From Methylocystis sp. B8 (GTDB taxonomy: Bacteria > Pseudomonadota > Alphaproteobacteria > Rhizobiales > Beijerinckiaceae): DNA of 64,000 bases. The position numbers and the translations under genes were made by a program. A model generated the notes under the pieces. It was not told the origin of the DNA and did no database searches. It saw only the letters and a list, made by a program, of their open reading frames with translations. The stretch spans positions 620,001 to 684,000 of the forward strand of contig NZ_VBTZ01000001.1 of NCBI RefSeq assembly GCF_005771425.1, written 5' to 3'. Shown in pieces: positions 2,165 to 52,281 of the stretch (positions are counted from its first letter, which is position 1; each line of letters begins with the position of its first letter).

Positions 2165-3130
2165 ATGCGTTCCTATCTCGATTTTGAAAAGCCCGTCGCG
2201 GAACTCGAAACCAAGGTGGACGAGCTGCGCGCGCTGGCAGAAAACGGCGAGGCTGTATCAATTGGCGAGGAGCTGAGCAAACTCCAGGCCAAGGCCGCCA
2301 AGGCGCTCGCCGATCTTTACGCCGGCCTCACCCCCTGGCAGAAGATTCAGGTCGCGCGGCATCCGCAGCGTCCGCATTTTTCTGACTATGTGCAGCAGCT
2401 TATCGATGAGTTCACGCCGCTCGCGGGCGACAGGCTTTTCGGCGAGGACGCTGCGATTGTCGGCGGCTTCGGGCGCTTCCGGGGAGAGCCGATTTGCGTG
2501 ATCGGTCAGGAGAAGGGCTCGGACACGGCGAGCCGGCTGCATCACAATTTCGGCATGGCGCGGCCGGAGGGCTATCGCAAGGCCGTCCGCTTAATGGAGC
2601 TTGCCGACCGCTTCGGCCTGCCGGTCGTCTCGCTCGTCGACACGGCCGGCGCTTTTCCTGGAATCGACGCCGAAGAGCGCGGTCAGGCGGAGGCGATCGC
2701 CCGCTCCACCGACGTGTCGCTCTCGCTCGGCGTGCCGAATGTCGCCGTTGTGGTGGGGGAGGGGGGCTCCGGCGGCGCAATCGCCATCGCCGCCGCGAAT
2801 AAGGTGCTGATGCTCGAGCACTCCGTCTATACGGTCGCGTCGCCTGAGGCCTCGGCCTCGATCCTGTGGCGCGACTCCGCCAAGGCGCAAGAAGCCGCGA
2901 CGAGCATGAAGATCACGGCGCAGGATCTCTTAAAGTTCGGCATCATCGATCTGATCGTGACGGAGCCGCCGGGCGGCGCTCATCGCGATCCAGAGGCGGC
3001 CATCGGCGCGGTGGGGGAGGCGCTCGCCAAGGAGCTTGCGGACTTGGCGAATTTTTCGCGAGAGCAGCTGAGAAACGCCCGCGCTGAGAAATTCATGGCC
3101 ATGGGCCGGAAGCTGGAAGAAAAGCGTTAA
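2165..3130 (+). CDS. accA: Acetyl-CoA carboxylase carboxyltransferase subunit alpha
   Basis: AccA forms, with AccD, the carboxyltransferase that moves CO2 from carboxybiotin to acetyl-CoA, the first step of fatty acid synthesis. The 321-residue product has the family N-terminus (YLDFEKPVAELE), the conserved IGQEKGSDT and HNFGMARPEGYRKA segments, the VDTAGAFPG motif and the GEGGSGGAIA oxyanion loop. Length agrees with the usual 317-325. The start is placed at Met 2165 rather than an upstream in-frame codon because family proteins begin at this MxxYLDFE. accD is not nearby, as is common. Confidence 0.96.
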   Translation: MRSYLDFEKPVAELETKVDELRALAENGEAVSIGEELSKLQAKAAKALADLYAGLTPWQKIQVARHPQRPHFSDYVQQLIDEFTPLAGDRLFGEDAAIVGGFGRFRGEPICVIGQEKGSDTASRLHHNFGMARPEGYRKAVRLMELADRFGLPVVSLVDTAGAFPGIDAEERGQAEAIARSTDVSLSLGVPNVAVVVGEGGSGGAIAIAAANKVLMLEHSVYTVASPEASASILWRDSAKAQEAATSMKITAQDLLKFGIIDLIVTEPPGGAHRDPEAAIGAVGEALAKELADLANFSREQLRNARAEKFMAMGRKLEEKR

Positions 3131-3285
3131 CGCAAATCTCGAAAGATTCGCCTTGAAAGGCGCAGAGGCGCCAATTTCTGGGTGATTCGGACACGTTCTC
3201 GTCCCAATGTTCCTTTTTTGTGGTCATCGCGACAGCCTCGCTTTTTGAGCCATCGCGAGGCGACGGCGCCGCTAGAGGGGACAAG

Positions 3286-4530
3286 ATGAAGATTCAAGGC
3301 ACAGCGCCGGCTCTTGGGCTTGCCGCCTTGGGCGCCTTCGGACTTTCCGGCTGCGATCAGGGCGGTCTCGCGCACCGCTCGCTTGCGCCGATCCCCTCCG
3401 AGACTGTCGCCTTGATGGACCAGGTCGGGACGTCTAAGGAAGCGCCGATGCTGATCCGCGCTTACAAGAAAGAAGCGGAGTTCGAAATCTGGAAGATGCG
3501 GTCAGATGGCCGCTACGTTCATCTGAAGACCTATCCGATGTGCCGCTGGTCGGGTCAGCTCGGTCCCAAGCGCCAACAGGGCGATCGCCAGGTGCCGGAA
3601 GGCTTCTACGCCATCGGCCCGGCGCAGATGAATCCTAATTCGAACTATTATCTTTCCTTCAACGTCGGCTATCCGAACGCCCTCGACCGCGCGCTGGGCC
3701 ACACAGGCGGCGATATCATGGTGCATGGCGCCTGCTCGTCGGCGGGCTGCTTCTCCATGACCGACAAGCAGATCGCTGAGATTTACGCGATCGCCCGCTC
3801 GTCGCTTAACGGCGGCCAGCGCGCGATTCAGATGCAGTCCTTCCCATTCAAGATGACGGCGGAAAATCTCGCCAAGCATCGGCTCGATCCGAACATCGGT
3901 TTCTGGAAGCAGCTGAAGGAAGGTTCCGATCATTTCGAAGTGACCTTGCAGGAGCCGCAGGTCGCCTTCTGCAATCGGCGCTATGTATTCAACGCGACCA
4001 GCGCCGCTCCTCTCGACCCCAACGCCGCCTGTCCGGCGCTCAAGCAGGATCCCGAAATTGCACAGGCGGTGGCCGAGAAGTCAGCGCGTGACGACGCTAA
4101 AATTGCTGAGCTTGTCCAAAGCGGCGTAAAGCCGGTGCGCGTCGTCTATCAGGACGGCGGTCAGCACCCGAGCTTCGCTTCGCGTATTTCTGAAGTCAGC
4201 CGGCCTGAAACGATCGTTCCGCCGACCGAAATCGCGCTCGACGACAAGCCAGGCCTTGGCGGTGGCGTTGGCGCTGGACAGCCGGCCGCCAAACTTGCCG
4301 GCGCATCGCCAGCCGTGACTTTGGCGGGCGCGAAGGCCGCTGACGAAAGCAAGCGCACGCATGTCGCAATGGCGCCGACGCACGGCGATCGCCGCGAAAT
4401 GTCCGCGCTCGCCGCTTCAGAGCCGGTCCTCGCGAACAAAAAAATCTTGCGCCCGAAAGACGCATCTGGGGAGGACGCGCCTATCCCGCCCGCCTCCATC
4501 GGCATCAGGAAATCCACCACAGTTCATTAG
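3286..4530 (+). CDS. YafK-type L,D-transpeptidase lipoprotein
   Basis: A 414-residue probable lipoprotein. The signal peptide ends in a lipobox LSGC (Cys about 23). The YkuD/YafK catalytic motif is VHGACSSAGCFSM, with His147 and nucleophile Cys155. Family members act on peptidoglycan L,D-crosslinks or hydrolyse protein-murein links in the periplasm. The ATG is chosen because AGGGG sits 5-10 bases upstream and it opens directly into the signal peptide; an upstream GTG at 3220 would bury that signal. The tail after about residue 270 is long, low-complexity (Ala/Pro/Lys) and without recognisable domain. A strong terminator follows. Confidence 0.88.
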   Translation: MKIQGTAPALGLAALGAFGLSGCDQGGLAHRSLAPIPSETVALMDQVGTSKEAPMLIRAYKKEAEFEIWKMRSDGRYVHLKTYPMCRWSGQLGPKRQQGDRQVPEGFYAIGPAQMNPNSNYYLSFNVGYPNALDRALGHTGGDIMVHGACSSAGCFSMTDKQIAEIYAIARSSLNGGQRAIQMQSFPFKMTAENLAKHRLDPNIGFWKQLKEGSDHFEVTLQEPQVAFCNRRYVFNATSAAPLDPNAACPALKQDPEIAQAVAEKSARDDAKIAELVQSGVKPVRVVYQDGGQHPSFASRISEVSRPETIVPPTEIALDDKPGLGGGVGAGQPAAKLAGASPAVTLAGAKAADESKRTHVAMAPTHGDRREMSALAASEPVLANKKILRPKDASGEDAPIPPASIGIRKSTTVH

Positions 4531-4570
4531 TCGCAATCTTTTCGAATTCTTGATAATCCAAGCAGACTTA

Positions 4571-4600
4571 AAGCCGCGTCCTGACGCGGCTTTTCTTTTG
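4571..4600 (+). terminator. Rho-independent terminator of the L,D-transpeptidase gene
   Basis: AAAGCCGCGT and ACGCGGCTTT form a 10-bp stem around a CCTG loop, followed by TTTTCTTTT. It lies 40 bases after the stop codon. Confidence 0.9.
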
Positions 4601-4647
4601 TGCGCGGTGAAATTACGGCCACGGCTCAGTCACGTGACAAAAAATCC

Positions 4648-4676
4648 TTGACTCTTGTGCGGCGCAGCAATATAAC
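4648..4676 (+). promoter_or_regulatory. Sigma70-type promoter of the candidate small RNA
   Basis: TTGACT (4648-4653) and TATAAC (4671-4676) are separated by exactly 17 bases. No coding sequence starts downstream before the terminator at 4740-4770, so the promoter appears to serve a short non-coding transcript starting near 4683. Confidence 0.75.
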
Positions 4677-4682
4677 AGTGCG

Positions 4683-4770
4683 ACGCAGCGAGAGCTGTCT
4701 CGCTTCGTAGCCCTCCTTGGGCGTTTCCTCCCTTGACTTGGGCCGCTGGTTCTTCCGGCGGCCCTTTTTT
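4683..4770 (+). ncRNA. Candidate trans-acting small RNA with anti-Shine-Dalgarno loop
   Basis: A transcript of roughly 88 bases is predicted between a good promoter and a clear terminator. Three hairpins are visible. Hairpin 1 is GCGAGA-GCTG-TCTCGC (4688-4703). Hairpin 2 is GCCC-TCCTT-GGGC (4710-4722), which presents CTCCTT. A single-stranded TTTCCTCCCTT follows. The last hairpin is GGGCCGC...GCGGCCC (4740-4764) with TTTTTT. CU-rich anti-Shine-Dalgarno motifs in loops are a known feature of alphaproteobacterial sRNA families such as alpha-r14 and the cuckoo RNAs; membership here is inferred. The T-tract overlaps the stop codon of the convergent cobB gene. No ORF of sensible length lies within it. 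Confidence 0.6.
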
Positions 4771-6085
4771 ACGCCATGAGGTGGAAAAAGGAGCCGGAAA
4801 CGCCGTTGCGCGTCAGCCCGGCGGGGCGCTCATCCTCGCTATAGGCGTCCTGCGCCAGCGCGAAAGGCGCGCCCTCTTCGCGCAGAACAGTCGCATAGTG
4901 GAACTCATGCCCGCGCAGTCGGAATCCGAGGACGCCCAACGGGTGATCTGCCGCCAGTCTCGCGTGGCGATAGCCGAGATGCAGCTTCCGCTTGGCGAAG
5001 CTCGTTTCCAGTTCGAGCAGTCCCGCCATTTCATGCGCCTCGCCAGCCGCATCGATCAGGGAGCGGCCCAAAACCATGTAGCCGCCGCATTCGCCGTGGA
5101 CCCAGCGTGCTTCAGCGAAACGCCGCAACCCGCTCATGAAATTTTGAGCCGCCGCCAGCCGCCCGGCGTGCAACTCCGGATAACCGCCGGGCAGCCAGCA
5201 GAGATCGCAATCATTGGGCGGCGCCTCGTCGGCGAGCGGCGAAAAGAAAAAGAGATCTGCGCCGGCGTCGCGCCAACTCTGTGCGAGATGCGGATAAAAG
5301 AAGGAAAAGGCGTCGTCGCGCGCGACCGCGATGCGCTGGGCGGGGGGCGGAAACGCCCGCTCCCTGTCCCTCTCCTGCCTAGCGGCGCGAGATGTGACGC
5401 TGCGCACGCCCTCGATCACCGCCGTGACATCCACATGCGTTTCGACGAAATCAGCGAGAGCGTCGAGACGTTGATCGAGATCTTGTGTCTCGCCAGCCTG
5501 CACCAGGCCGAGATGGCGTTCGGGCAGTATGATCTTCTCGTCGCGCGGCAGCGCGCCAAGCACTTTTATGCCGAGCGCCTCTATTGCTTCAGCAGCGAGT
5601 CTGCGATGGCGCTCTGAGGCGACGCGGTTCAACACGACGCCTGCGACTTTCACGCGCGCGTCATGCGCAGCAATTCCGCGCACGATCGCCGCCGCCGTCT
5701 GCGCCTGGCCGGAAACGTCATGGATCAGCACCACTGGCCAGCCGAGCATGGCGGCGATGTCGGCGCTGGCGCCGACGCCAGCCGCTCCACCTGGCGCGCC
5801 GTCGAAAAGCCCCATGGCGCCTTCGGCGATCACGATGTCCGCGCCTTCGCTTGTGCGCGCGGCGAGGCGCGTGATCAAATCCGCATCCATCGCCCAGGAA
5901 TCGAGATTGACGCTGGCGCGGCCGGTCGCCGCTGCGTGAAAAGCGGGGTCGATATAATCCGGCCCGCATTTGACGGGCGCGACGCACGAGCCGCGCCGCG
6001 TCAGCGCTCGCATCAGACCGAGCGTCAGCGTCGTCTTGCCCGACGAGGAGCGGGCGGCGCCGATCAGCAGGCCGGGCGCGTTCAC
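4769..6085 (-). CDS. cobB: Hydrogenobyrinic/cobyrinic acid a,c-diamide synthase
   Basis: CobB amidates the a and c side chains of (hydrogeno)byrinic acid using glutamine and ATP. The 438-residue protein starts with a dethiobiotin-synthetase-like P-loop ([11 protein letters not shown]) and KCGPDYIDP. It ends in a class I glutamine amidotransferase domain with the nucleophile Cys in [11 protein letters not shown]. Length fits the family. It is the last gene of the operon and overlaps cobM by ATGA. In the aerobic pathway its product is the substrate of CobN, encoded upstream in the same operon. Confidence 0.95.
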
Positions 6086-6846
6086 CTTTCGCCTCTGGGC
6101 CGGAAGCGCCGATCATAACCCGCGTCATAGAGCGCGCTTTCGCGAAAATCTTCGCTCGCGAGCGCGCGCCCGACAAGAATGAGCGCGGTGCGGTCCATCG
6201 GCGTTTCGGCTGCGCGCGCGTCGATGTCTGCGAGGGTTGCGCGCACGATGCGTTCATCCGGCCATGAGGCGCGATAGACGAGCGCGACCGGACAGTCGGC
6301 GCCGTAAAAAGGAGTCAGTTCGTCCACGACTCGCGCGAGAACATGAATCGAAAGATGGATCGCGAGCGTTGCGCCCGATTGCGCGAAAGTCGCAAGCTTT
6401 TCATTCTCTGGCATCGACGATGCGCGACCTGACGTGCGCGTCAGCACCAGAGATTGCGCGACTTCGGGCAGGGTGAATTCGCGTTTCAACGCAGCGCTCG
6501 CCGCCGCAAAGGCTGGGACGCCCGGCGTCATCGTGTAAGAGATGCCGAGCGCGTCGAGGCGTCGCATCTGTTCCCCGACTGCGCTCCAAATCGAAAGGTC
6601 GCCGGAATGCAGCCGCGCGACGTCAAGCCCGGCGTCATGCGCCTCTTTCATTTGAGCGACGATATCGTCGAGCGACAGCGGCGCCGTATCGACGATGCGC
6701 GCGTCGGCTGGACAATGCGCAAGCACCCCCGCAGGCACGAGCGAGCCGGCGTAAAGGCACACCGGACATCGCGCGATGAGATCGCGCCCGCGCAAGGTGA
6801 GGAGATCGGCGGCGCCAGGACCGGCGCCGATGAAGTGCACGGTCAT
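6082..6846 (-). CDS. cobM: Precorrin-4 C11-methyltransferase
   Basis: CobM transfers a methyl group from S-adenosylmethionine to C11 of precorrin-4. The 254-residue protein has the tetrapyrrole methylase fold signatures: [13 protein letters not shown] at the N-terminus, [16 protein letters not shown] and [13 protein letters not shown]. Its start codon overlaps the cobE stop (ATGA), so translation is probably coupled. Length is normal (about 250-260). Confidence 0.95.
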
Positions 6847-7241
6847 GAGTTTTCCTCTTCGCCGCGTTTCGCAAGAGCGCAGGCGGCGACCGGCGTCGTC
6901 ACGCGCGGCGCGACGAGGCGGCTGTTCGCGCCGGCGCCGACGAGCGCCGCGGCCTCGGCGACGCTGCCGACTCCAAAGAGCGCCTGCACGCGTGGCGAAT
7001 GCGTCGCCGCGGGGGCCTTGCGCGCGCGCAGCGCCGCGAGCGGCAGAAAGACGAGTTCGACGCCGAGTTCGCGCGCGGCCTCGTGCAGCCCGGCTTCCTC
7101 CGCCTTGCTTTCGAGCGCATATAGCCTCGCCTCGCGCAGATCGACATTATGCGTCTCAGCAACTCGGCGCACGAGTTCGACGATATCCTGCGCGGCGACG
7201 CCCCGTCGTGCGCCGAGGCCGAAGGCATAGAGCGCGTTCAT
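6843..7241 (-). CDS. cobE: Cobalamin biosynthesis protein CobE (CbiG C-terminal domain)
   Basis: A 132-residue protein equal to the C-terminal domain of CbiG. It has the family features [12 protein letters not shown] near the start, [18 protein letters not shown] in the middle and [19 protein letters not shown] at the end. Its exact biochemical step in the aerobic pathway is not settled; it is repeatedly found between cobL and cobM. The frame is open upstream, with an alternative Met at 7259. The start at 7241 is chosen because it gives the same ATGA overlap with cobL seen at neighbouring junctions. Confidence 0.88.
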
Positions 7242-8440
7242 CTCTTCACTGCGCGCCATTGCATCACCGCCATCGCCGGATCGAGCGTGTGAAAGCGGCC
7301 GATCGGGCGCGCATGCGCAATTTGCAGATGCAACAGCTCGCCGCCCTTTTCGTGATAAGCGCCAGCGAGAAGCGACTGTGTCTCTATCGTAACGGCGTTG
7401 ACGACGATGCGCCCGAAGCGGGGCAGAGCGATCCATGCGGCGTCGAGCGTGGCGGCGTCTGCGCCGCCGCCGATGAAGATCGCCTGCGGCGGTTCGAGTT
7501 CCGCGAGCGCCTCCGGCGCTTCGCCATCAACGACGCGCAAATCTGGAACGCCGAGCGACAGCGCGTTGCGCGCGATGCGCGCCGCGCGCGCGTCGTCACG
7601 CTCAATCGCGATGGCGCGATTTGAGGGGTCGCTCAGCATCCATTCGATGGCGATGGAGCCCGCGCCTGCGCCCACATCCCACAGCAATTCGCCCTTGCGC
7701 GGCGCGAGCGCCGAGAGCGTCACGGCGCGAATGTCGCGCTTGGTGAGCTGTCCGTCATGCTCGAACCACTCGTCGGGCAGGCCCGGCGCAAGTGGAACGA
7801 CCTGCGCGCCATCCTCGGCCTCGACTTCAACGGCGACGGTGTTGAGCGGCGCAATGTCGTTGAGAGCGAACGCGTCCGCGCGCGCATCGCGCATGCGCTC
7901 ATGCGGACCGCCAAGACGTTCGAGCACATAGAGGCGCGATCCGCCCATCCCGCGCTCGACAAGGCATTGCGCGAGGCGCGCTGGCGTCGTCTCGTCCCAT
8001 GAAAGCGCGATGATCCGCGCGCGCGGCTGCAAATGCGGCGTCACGCGCTCAAAGGCGCGGCCGTGCAGCGAAAGAAGCGCGCAATCCTGCTGGCTCCATT
8101 TGAGCCGCGCGGCTGCGAGCGAAAAGGCCGAAGGCGCCGGAACGCAGAAAATCTCATCGCGCGCGACATGACGCGCGATGAGATCGCCGACGCCATAGAA
8201 AAAAGGATCGCCTGAGGCGAGGATGACCGTCGGCTTGCCGCGTCGAGCAAGGATGTACGGCAATGCATCAGTCAGCGGCGAAGGCCACTGCAGATGTTCC
8301 GCTGGCGAGTCGACCATGGCGAGATGCCGCGCGCCGCCGACAATCAGCGAGGCTTGCGCGACGAGCGCGCGCGCCGCTGGCGTCAGCGCGTCGGCGCCAT
8401 CTTCGCCAAGCCCGATCAGCGACAACCACGGCGCGCTCAT
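7238..8440 (-). CDS. cobL: Precorrin-6Y C5,15-methyltransferase (decarboxylating)
   Basis: CobL methylates C5 and C15 of precorrin-6Y and decarboxylates the acetate at C12. The 400-residue fusion has an N-terminal CbiE-type methylase domain (LIGLGEDGADALTPAAR, LASGDPFFYGVG) and a C-terminal CbiT-type Rossmann domain with the SAM loop WDVGAGAGSIAIEWM. The start at 8440 is chosen for the ATGA overlap with cobJ; an upstream in-frame start would extend into cobJ. cobK, which often lies beside cobL, is absent here. Confidence 0.94.
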   Translation of the reverse strand: MSAPWLSLIGLGEDGADALTPAARALVAQASLIVGGARHLAMVDSPAEHLQWPSPLTDALPYILARRGKPTVILASGDPFFYGVGDLIARHVARDEIFCVPAPSAFSLAAARLKWSQQDCALLSLHGRAFERVTPHLQPRARIIALSWDETTPARLAQCLVERGMGGSRLYVLERLGGPHERMRDARADAFALNDIAPLNTVAVEVEAEDGAQVVPLAPGLPDEWFEHDGQLTKRDIRAVTLSALAPRKGELLWDVGAGAGSIAIEWMLSDPSNRAIAIERDDARAARIARNALSLGVPDLRVVDGEAPEALAELEPPQAIFIGGGADAATLDAAWIALPRFGRIVVNAVTIETQSLLAGAYHEKGGELLHLQIAHARPIGRFHTLDPAMAVMQWRAVKR

Positions 8441-17037: not shown

Positions 17038-17100
17038 ATCGGTCTCCTTGCCGCCCCACCGGCGGCGATGCGATGCGCGGAGCGATCTAAAAGATCGCCA

Positions 17101-17268
17101 TGACGGCAGGTCTCCTGGCTCCCGGGTCGTCGAACCGCGCCGCCTTCCCAAGCGTCACGCTCAGTGGCCGATGGCGCGGACCTTGCCGGCTACAGTTGCG
17201 GGGGCAGCCGCGGAAATGGGCTAACGCCCGCGCCGCGTTCCCTTTTCACTTCTTGCGAAGGACCGTCC
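17101..17268 (-). promoter_or_regulatory. Cobalamin riboswitch (B12 element) of the cbt-cob operon
   Basis: Read on the minus strand, the hallmarks come in order: GACGGT (P1 5' strand), AAAAGGGAAC, GCTGCCCCCGCAACTGTA, CCACTG, GGGAAGG, and the B12 box GAGCCAGGAGACCTGCC closing with GCCGTC, which pairs with P1. It lies 63 bases upstream of cbtB. No U-tract terminator follows. A 6-bp hairpin GCCGCC/GGCGGC abuts the cbtB Shine-Dalgarno sequence, so translational control is plausible; that is inferred. Confidence 0.95.
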
Positions 17269-17274
17269 CGACTA

Positions 17275-17303
17275 GTCATATGCGCGGCTCTTGCTTCCGT
17301 CAA
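17275..17303 (-). promoter_or_regulatory. Promoter of the cbt-cob operon
   Basis: On the minus strand TTGACG (17303-17298) and TATGAC (17280-17275) are 17 bases apart. Transcription would begin near 17268, exactly at the 5' strand of riboswitch helix P1, which supports both calls. Confidence 0.8.
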
Positions 17304-36361: not shown

Positions 36362-36826
36362 ATGGTCGAGGCCGCGGCCGGCGCGACTCTCGAGAGCGCC
36401 GACATTTTGCAGATCATGCGGTGTCTGCCGCATCGCTATCCGTTCTTGCTGATAGATCGTATCATCGACATCCGCGGCGACGAATCGTGCATCGGCGTAA
36501 AAAACGTCACGATCAACGAACCGCAATTCCAGGGGCATTTTCCCGAGCGGCCGGTGATGCCAGGCGTGCTGCTGATCGAAGCAATGGCGCAGACGGCGGG
36601 CGTTATCGCGGCGCGCGCGCAAGGCGAAGTCGATCGTCCGCGGCTCGTCTATTTCGCGACGATTGACAGCGCCAAGTTTCGCAAGCCGGTCACGCCCGGA
36701 GATCGCGTCGAATTCCACATGACGAAGACCGCGCAGAAGCGAAACATCTGGTGGTATTCCGGGCGGGCCCTCGTCGAGGGAACCCTCGTCTGCGAGGCGC
36801 AAATCAGCGCCATGATGAGCGTGTGA
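36362..36826 (+). CDS. fabZ: 3-hydroxyacyl-ACP dehydratase FabZ
   Basis: FabZ dehydrates 3-hydroxyacyl-ACP in fatty acid elongation and competes with LpxA and LpxD for substrate. The 154-residue protein shows the hot-dog fold motifs [13 protein letters not shown] (catalytic His) and [18 protein letters not shown] (catalytic Glu). The start at 36362 is fixed by AAGGAGG 5 bases upstream; an in-frame ATG at 36329 lacks this. Confidence 0.96.
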
Positions 36827-51855: not shown

Positions 51856-52281
51856 CTACCCCTCCGGCGCCGCGTTCATCGCAGCGCATTGTTGTTCTTT
51901 ACGCTGCGCACAAACGCGTCACAGCTTCCGATGTGTGAAATTTCATATCAGATAGTTGCATTTTTGTGCAGCCGGAGTAACGTGACTGCGCCAAATGAGT
52001 TGCGCGTCTGGCGGCGTCGAAGGGCCTGAAACAAGACCCATGGCGCGCTTAAAGCGTTCGATGCGTATTCGGCACAACTTTGAATACCCTGCGGAGTGCT
52101 CAGGTCCGCCGCATCTCCTGGGTCCGTGGGGTTGGCCGACTGGCGGTGGTTGGAGTGGCCTCCTTGAAGCCATCGTCAGTCGGCCGCCTTGCTCCCGACG
52201 AACGTTGATCTTCCAACCGACGCGCGAACGCGCTCGGACCAACGAGCTCTCGCTACATCACGGTGGTCACGAAAGCGTCGT
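51856..52281. other. Gene-free stretch
   Basis: No supported gene was found here. Open frames on the plus strand continue antisense into rpmG and show no family features. An imperfect inverted repeat GGCCGACTG...CAGTCGGCC (52134-52185) is the only structure noticed, with a 34-base spacer. Confidence 0.5.

Follow-up and report, generated by a model that had tools for sequence, protein, structure and literature searches.

What kind of element occupies the DNA between the converging YkuD-domain and cobB-like genes of Methylocystis sp. B8? Methylocystis is a type II methanotroph, and type II methanotrophs are of interest for the production of PHB from methane. The element lies at plus-strand positions 4648–4770 of the window, i.e., the whole 64,000-nucleotide stretch analysed here, to which all coordinates refer unless otherwise indicated. 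The first-pass annotation had proposed a stand-alone small RNA (sRNA) that blocks ribosome-binding sites. Upstream, on the same strand, is the YkuD-domain gene (3286–4530; Pfam PF03734), and the separate terminator proposed to insulate it was found at 4570–4593 (plus strand, terminator scan), between this gene and the sRNA promoter. Downstream, the cobB-like gene (4769–6085, minus strand; Pfam PF07685 CobB/CobQ-like GATase and PF01656) stands tail-to-tail with the sRNA. A T-tract does overlap the cobB stop codon (4769–4771, minus strand), as had been noticed; it is the T-tract of the sRNA itself (4765–4770) and not that of the terminator at 4570–4593. This layout would allow interference with the cobalamin operon.

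The arrangement of promoter, hairpins, and terminator at 4648–4770 was confirmed. The promoter consists of a −35 element TTGACT (4648–4653), a 17-base spacer, and a −10 element TATAAC (4671–4676), and matches the consensus at 10 of 12 positions. Promoter elements were present in most sister loci of the alignment, with TTGAC- kept at −35. The promoter scan called no promoters in either 3000–7500 or 4400–4900, because it accepts only −10 boxes that end in T. With the start placed by the −10 element, the transcript would be approximately 87 nt long (4684–4770, plus strand). Its predicted fold had an energy of −42.9 kcal/mol (z −5.49), which none of 200 shuffles equalled. Both hairpins claimed between promoter and terminator were recovered in this fold, alongside an exposed TTTCCTCCCT. 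The 5′ hairpin (4684–4707) lies mostly upstream of the Rfam model and is conserved in the genus with a variable loop; the weak hairpin GCCC-UCCUU-GGGC (4710–4722) is a helix of the model. The latter had been described as exposing CTCCTT. An exposed loop is indeed predicted, and it reads UCCUU, the first C of CUCCUU being paired. The single-stranded C/T motif expected after the hairpins is the 10-mer UUUCCUCCCU at 4724–4733, within the unpaired stretch 4723–4739 that precedes the terminator. From fold and conservation, and from the role given in the available part of PMC12559287, it is the anti-Shine-Dalgarno pairing site of the family. The intrinsic terminator (4740–4770) has a 10-pair stem (4740–4764, 9 G–C pairs) followed by six T (4765–4770). 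Terminator-like sites numbered 3 in 4400–4900 vs. 0.6 in shuffles; over 3000–7500, the count of 5 vs. 4.6 was at chance level.

Covariance-model search placed the element in Rfam family RF00519 (suhB = MmgR = alphaR8), with a match at 4703–4778 that scored 67.5 bits, where the gathering cut-off is 41 (window-wide E 9.2e-12), and spanned the full model (1–77). The genome contained one copy only at E ≤ 0.001. A second match at 4529–4606 (19.7 bits) fell below the cut-off and was disregarded. Cuckoo RNAs and alpha-r14 have anti-Shine-Dalgarno loops rich in C and U and in this respect resemble the Methylocystis sRNA; both had been suggested as its family. Among the 16 Rfam matches obtained at E up to 5 in 4500–4900, alpha-r14 was absent and no cuckoo name occurred, which bears on cuckoo RNAs only as far as Rfam has a model for them. 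The initial idea of a stand-alone sRNA of the ribosome-binding-site-blocking kind is supported by the RF00519 score and by the 10-mer work in Caulobacter (PMC12559287, available part); the families named for it were not borne out. Elsewhere in the window, an EcpR1 sRNA (Rfam RF02500) was detected at 52084–52190 (plus strand; 97.1 bits vs. a cut-off of 60).

According to the available part of the same paper, alphaR8 RNAs are found throughout the Alphaproteobacteria with the exception of Rickettsiales, usually as a single copy adjoining an FGase gene; shared features are a terminator and, following a weak hairpin, the unpaired 10-mer UUUCCUCCCU (PMC12559287). The Methylocystis sRNA has the covariance score, the single-stranded 10-mer after the weak hairpin, and the 3′ Rho-independent terminator. 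The FGase linkage, usual and not obligatory in RF00519, was absent: the one FGase match is located on contig C24 and the sRNA on contig C1. This linkage is not defining for the family, since it holds for “most species” only. The element is a real sRNA gene, found from raw sequence, with predicted expression; its sequence and structure are those of an ordinary family member. The genome carries hfq, and binding of the sRNA by Hfq is predicted.

Of 41 genomes, namely that of Methylocystis sp. B8 and those of 40 relatives, 37 had an RF00519 match, which was over the cut-off in 33; across the taxonomic family, 58 of 60 genomes had one (56 over the cut-off; 57/57 among good-quality genomes). The number of matches per positive genome varied from 1 to 14, some below the cut-off; 14 were counted in G059 and 12 in G099, and five lay within approximately 1.5 kb in G090. 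An exact 43-nt core was present in 24 records titled Methylocystis, Methylosinus, Methylocystaceae, or unclassified Alphaproteobacteria/Hyphomicrobiales. Absence of conservation in related genomes had been named as an observation that would speak against the sRNA; conservation was observed instead. Among loci obtained with the covariance model, the 24-nt block GCCCTCCTTGGGCGTTTCCTCCCT was exact in 21 of 23 from the genus and 4 of 7 from other families, the genus exceptions (L029 and L030) being divergent copies. These data also bear on the reading that the locus holds chance hairpins or a decayed, silent copy. Transcription at this place is predicted from the DNA, which leaves some room for such a reading; the intact promoter, hairpins, and terminator and the exact 24-nt core in the genus make it extremely improbable.

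In the alignment, GCCCTCCTTGGGCGTTTCCTCCCT was invariant over 25 genus and near-genus sequences, of which 11 had been fetched by an exact match containing the core and are identical there by construction. These 25 were taken from 36 distinct sequences, with the 7 other-family loci, L029, L030, and the near-duplicates L014 and L017 omitted. In the 5′ hairpin (4684–4707), 95.4% of cells were paired and both-side changes occurred in 1 of 9 pairs; in the terminator stem, both-side changes occurred in 2 of 10 pairs. Over the whole structure, 98.1% of cells could pair vs. 39–55% when the structure was slid along the alignment. The observed value was reached by 1 of 500 shuffles for cells paired, by none for both-side-changed pairs, by 1 for both-side-changed cells, and by 8 for the score. 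Further pair types were at shuffle level (475/500 shuffles reached it), and the covariation score of 0.051 was exceeded by slides of +2 and +3 (0.061 and 0.052), so the support from covariation is weak. Sequence conservation is strong.

The position of the gene differs between the genus and its relatives. RF00519 was matched in 12 of 16 genomes from other families of the order; in all seven loci fetched, the sRNA adjoined FGase, located downstream on the opposite strand with cpdR beyond, and in six of the seven suhB was its other neighbour. Among the 29 loci from other genera of the same family, 20 showed FGase, CpdR, or SuhB, none CobB, and 9 none of these genes. Within the genus (23 of 25 genomes gave a locus), 20 of 23 loci have an opposite-strand CobB whose match edge lies 49–126 nt beyond the core; in one the distance is 1,070 nt, and two (L029 and L030) lack CobB. 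CobB also adjoined the sRNA in 23 of 24 named records, which overlap the genus genomes (exception L065). Contig C24 of the Methylocystis genome carries FGase, suhB, and cpdR as a group, with a suhB–FGase gap of 32 bp, and the covariance-model search detected no sRNA at this locus. Because this gap is closed without the sRNA and the genus position is beside cobB, the sRNA unit has changed place, and the simplest reading is a move from the suhB–FGase gap to the YkuD–cobB gap. The origin of a second copy followed by loss of the first is equally possible. At the new place promoter, operator, and terminator are intact, and the genes flanking the sRNA in other families are closely spaced here in its absence.

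The place beside cobB allows another explanation, by which read-through from cobB would yield a perfect antisense RNA that titrates the sRNA and couples it to the cobalamin operon. The minus strand has no T-tract after the sRNA hairpin, and in the scan for intrinsic terminators its only terminator-like site in 4400–4900 is at 4464–4448, beyond the sRNA. A cobalamin riboswitch (RF00174, 125.3 bits) lies upstream at 17088–17282 (minus strand), on the same strand as the cob genes, of which cobB is the last. The gene's own antisense was also the only genome site with at most one mismatch to the 16-nt seed complement, and neighbours in other families are likewise on the opposite strand (downstream 7/7, upstream 6/7). 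Set against this, tail-to-tail layouts are common, and the distance to the CobB edge varies among the genus loci as described above. We therefore regard such titration as improbable. A separate sponge RNA was sought and rejected: own antisense aside, no genome site had 0–1 mismatches to the 16-nt seed complement, and with up to 3 mismatches 54 matches were obtained vs. 36 for the reversed control, with no clear sponge candidate.

The promoter contains a putative PhaR/AniA-type operator, a 21-mer (4652–4672) located between the −35 and −10 elements with the palindrome core TGCGGCGCA at 4658–4666. On a matrix built from 9 Sinorhizobium PhaR sites, with the mmgR site left out, it was the top-scoring position of the window (13.8 bits, compared to 15.6 for the Sinorhizobium mmgR site). 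The site reads CTCTTGTGCGGCGCAGCAATA, and its Sinorhizobium mmgR counterpart CAATTGTGCACCGCAGCATTA. A second palindrome, TGCGACGCA (4679–4687), covers the predicted start 21 bases from the first and scores poorly on the Sinorhizobium matrix, with 6.2 bits and the 20th rank among window positions. The best PhaR-type site of the locus fell in the sRNA promoter (30–110 nt before the core) in 49 of 59 sRNA loci (L001–L030 and L098–L126), which are related and do not make 59 independent tests; it did so in 21 of 23 loci of the genus and 28 of 36 outside it, and lay elsewhere in 10. With 200 core-permuted matrices that kept the AT arms, the mean was 11.6 and the maximum 46, and none reached 49. A PhaR/AniA operator in the sRNA promoter is a feature of the PHB regulator MmgR, and at the sequence level the Methylocystis gene has it.

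Besides hfq, the genome carries phaR and five Phasin_2 matches. PhaR-type sites precede three phasin-family genes: L043 (24.8 and 17.3 bits), L044 (21.3 bits), and L045 (25.8 and 15.7 bits). In the matrix scan, L047 had no good PhaR site upstream, and L046, which follows L045 on the same strand, had none of its own. A double PhaR palindrome was tried as a regulon marker and rejected; it occurred at 3 places in the genome, one of which (L032) scored only 2.9 bits on the matrix and was dropped. At 1379–1536 of L033 (around G000:C24:94726), PhaR-type sites of 17.9 and 14.9 bits precede a gene that may be another PhaR target and encodes a small protein, probably secreted.

Family membership, the 10-mer, the PhaR-type operator, the phaR, hfq, and phasin genes, the strong PhaR-type sites before three of the latter, and the genus-typical position beside cobB are established at the sequence level. 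Taken with them, we consider it highly probable that 4684–4770 encodes the Methylocystis member of alphaR8 (RF00519, MmgR/SisA) and that it acts through a PhaR–Hfq–UUUCCUCCCU repression mechanism, as one joint explanation. By this mechanism, PhaR would repress the sRNA gene while PHB is scarce. At carbon excess, PHB granules would draw off PhaR and the sRNA would accumulate and bind Hfq. The UUUCCUCCCU 10-mer would then pair with purine-rich ribosome-binding sites, and translation of a set of mRNAs would fall. Among candidate targets, mxaI is the best conserved one found, and phasins are plausible only by analogy with Sinorhizobium.

A search of the Methylocystis genome with GGGAGGAA-N3-10-ATG gave 8 places vs. 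2 for the control. These were rejected as targets: five of the eight lead into reading frames shorter than 90 aa, and L036/L041, an identical pair, is the only one to recur in the genome. The members of this pair encode identical 189-aa proteins on different contigs, with CGGGAGGAACTCC before both starts. Genus-wide, GGGAGGAAAC-N1-8-ATG was matched at 25 places, two of which overlap, spread over 17 of 31 genomes, and the control at 3. Four of the 25 precede mxaI and two precede genes that we take to be carbonic-anhydrase-like; the rest are mutually unlike except for the overlapping pair. From the seed-complement searches, mxaI (methanol dehydrogenase small subunit, Pfam PF02315) was the one recurrent gene of clear function.

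The mxaI gene was present in 22 of the 31 genus genomes searched, and in all 22 an exact seed complement of 7–12 nt precedes its start (14 reach at least 9 nt, and four have 12 nt); this comparison used the sRNA letters of the window, the sRNA having been searched for in only some of these genomes. In Methylocystis sp. B8 (L152, G000:C18:343766–344011), the complement is the 9-nt GGAGGAAAC (−16.1 kcal/mol). Among 147 distinct Shine-Dalgarno-bearing starts from the genus loci, 13 reached at least 9 nt and 11 of these were mxaI, which shows uniformity and not enrichment, as the mxaI loci were fetched on purpose. In the Methylocystis genome, at least 9 nt was reached by mxaI and by 1 of 56 Shine-Dalgarno-bearing starts from loci not chosen by seed (85 minus mxaI and the seed-pattern loci L035–L042 and L127–L138). 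That one belongs to a presumably FabZ-like gene at 36362 of the window (plus strand), with AAGGAGGAAACA before its start; a presumably RdgB-like gene of the genome also has a 9-nt complement. Phasin pairing looked strong against 45 window ORFs, whose starts are uncertain, but was ordinary against Shine-Dalgarno-bearing starts: values of −10.1 to −12.5 kcal/mol are unremarkable next to the 56 (median −9.6, lower quartile −12.1).

These counts bear on whether the same family member could be wired otherwise, i.e., not controlled by PhaR or not a PHB regulator, with a role in nutrient uptake as for SisA or in C1 metabolism through mxaI. The promoters of Caulobacter SisA–D are unrelated, and TonB-dependent receptors, transporters, and metabolic factors are frequent among the targets of SisA, according to the available part of PMC12559287. 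The mxaI complement in every genome that has the gene, and the rarity of 9-nt complements among starts not chosen by seed, point the same way. However, the PhaR-type site is the best of its locus in nearly all genus loci, and a strong Shine-Dalgarno is expected for the abundant MxaI anyway, which is a sufficient alternative explanation of its seed complement; the FabZ-like and RdgB-like genes reach 9 nt as well. We judge other wiring unlikely, though clearly less so than titration by antisense, and treat mxaI as a lead suggested by the complement. A bolder combination is that the PhaR–MmgR switch of type II methanotrophs has been rewired to methane metabolism, where PHB frees the promoter of PhaR, MmgR trims mxaI, and cobB read-through brakes MmgR; this is as doubtful as the antisense titration itself. 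If true, the switch would trim methanol dehydrogenase at carbon excess, by a 9-nt pairing at the mxaI ribosome-binding site here and a 12-nt one in four sisters. Relatives of the sRNA restrict carbon storage or the uptake of nutrients; one studied case works by occlusion of ribosome-binding sites on mRNAs. A PhaR-controlled sRNA with a ready-made seed would offer a handle on carbon flux.

We found no report of the Methylocystis sRNA or its PhaR site in open-licence PMC papers; the sequence may well be listed already in Lagares 2017 (MmgR) or Lagares 2016 (family survey). This analysis adds the PhaR-type site seen across the order, the location next to cobB, and mxaI as a lead. The record of Methylosinus sporium DSM 17706 holds the exact 43-nt core (L057). 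In the available part of the transcript-map paper on M. sporium 5, “suhB” is absent from the main text; six Rfam families are reported, with EcpR1, alpha-r45, and two riboswitches among those named, which counts against the joint explanation given above.

Of the characterized relatives, Caulobacter crescentus SisA–D share with the Methylocystis sRNA the UUUCCUCCCU 10-mer after a weak hairpin and the Rho-independent terminator. They differ in number (four copies vs. one) and in the FGase link, which sisA has. As described in the available part of PMC12559287, SisA is a repressor of mRNAs; for one target, compensatory mutations showed that the 10-mer acts by pairing upstream of the start codon. 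SisA is itself sponged by CrfA with the help of Hfq, whereas in the Methylocystis genome no CrfA-like long complement was found besides the antisense of the sRNA gene. The Sinorhizobium meliloti MmgR is a 77-nt, Hfq-dependent RNA, whose mutant has more PHB and more phasin protein (PMC8401924, available part). PhaR (AniA) binds the mmgR promoter in EMSA at CAATTGTGCACCGCAGCATTA, and also phasin and other promoters at the palindrome (PMC12542648, available part). Control by NtrC and the PHB phenotype are features of S. meliloti MmgR, with which the Methylocystis sRNA is compared here by its letters. The latter differs from MmgR by its probable length of approximately 87 nt, by the extra 5′ hairpin, and by adjoining cobB, and it shares with MmgR the Rfam family, the 10-mer, the PhaR/AniA-type promoter site, and the terminator.
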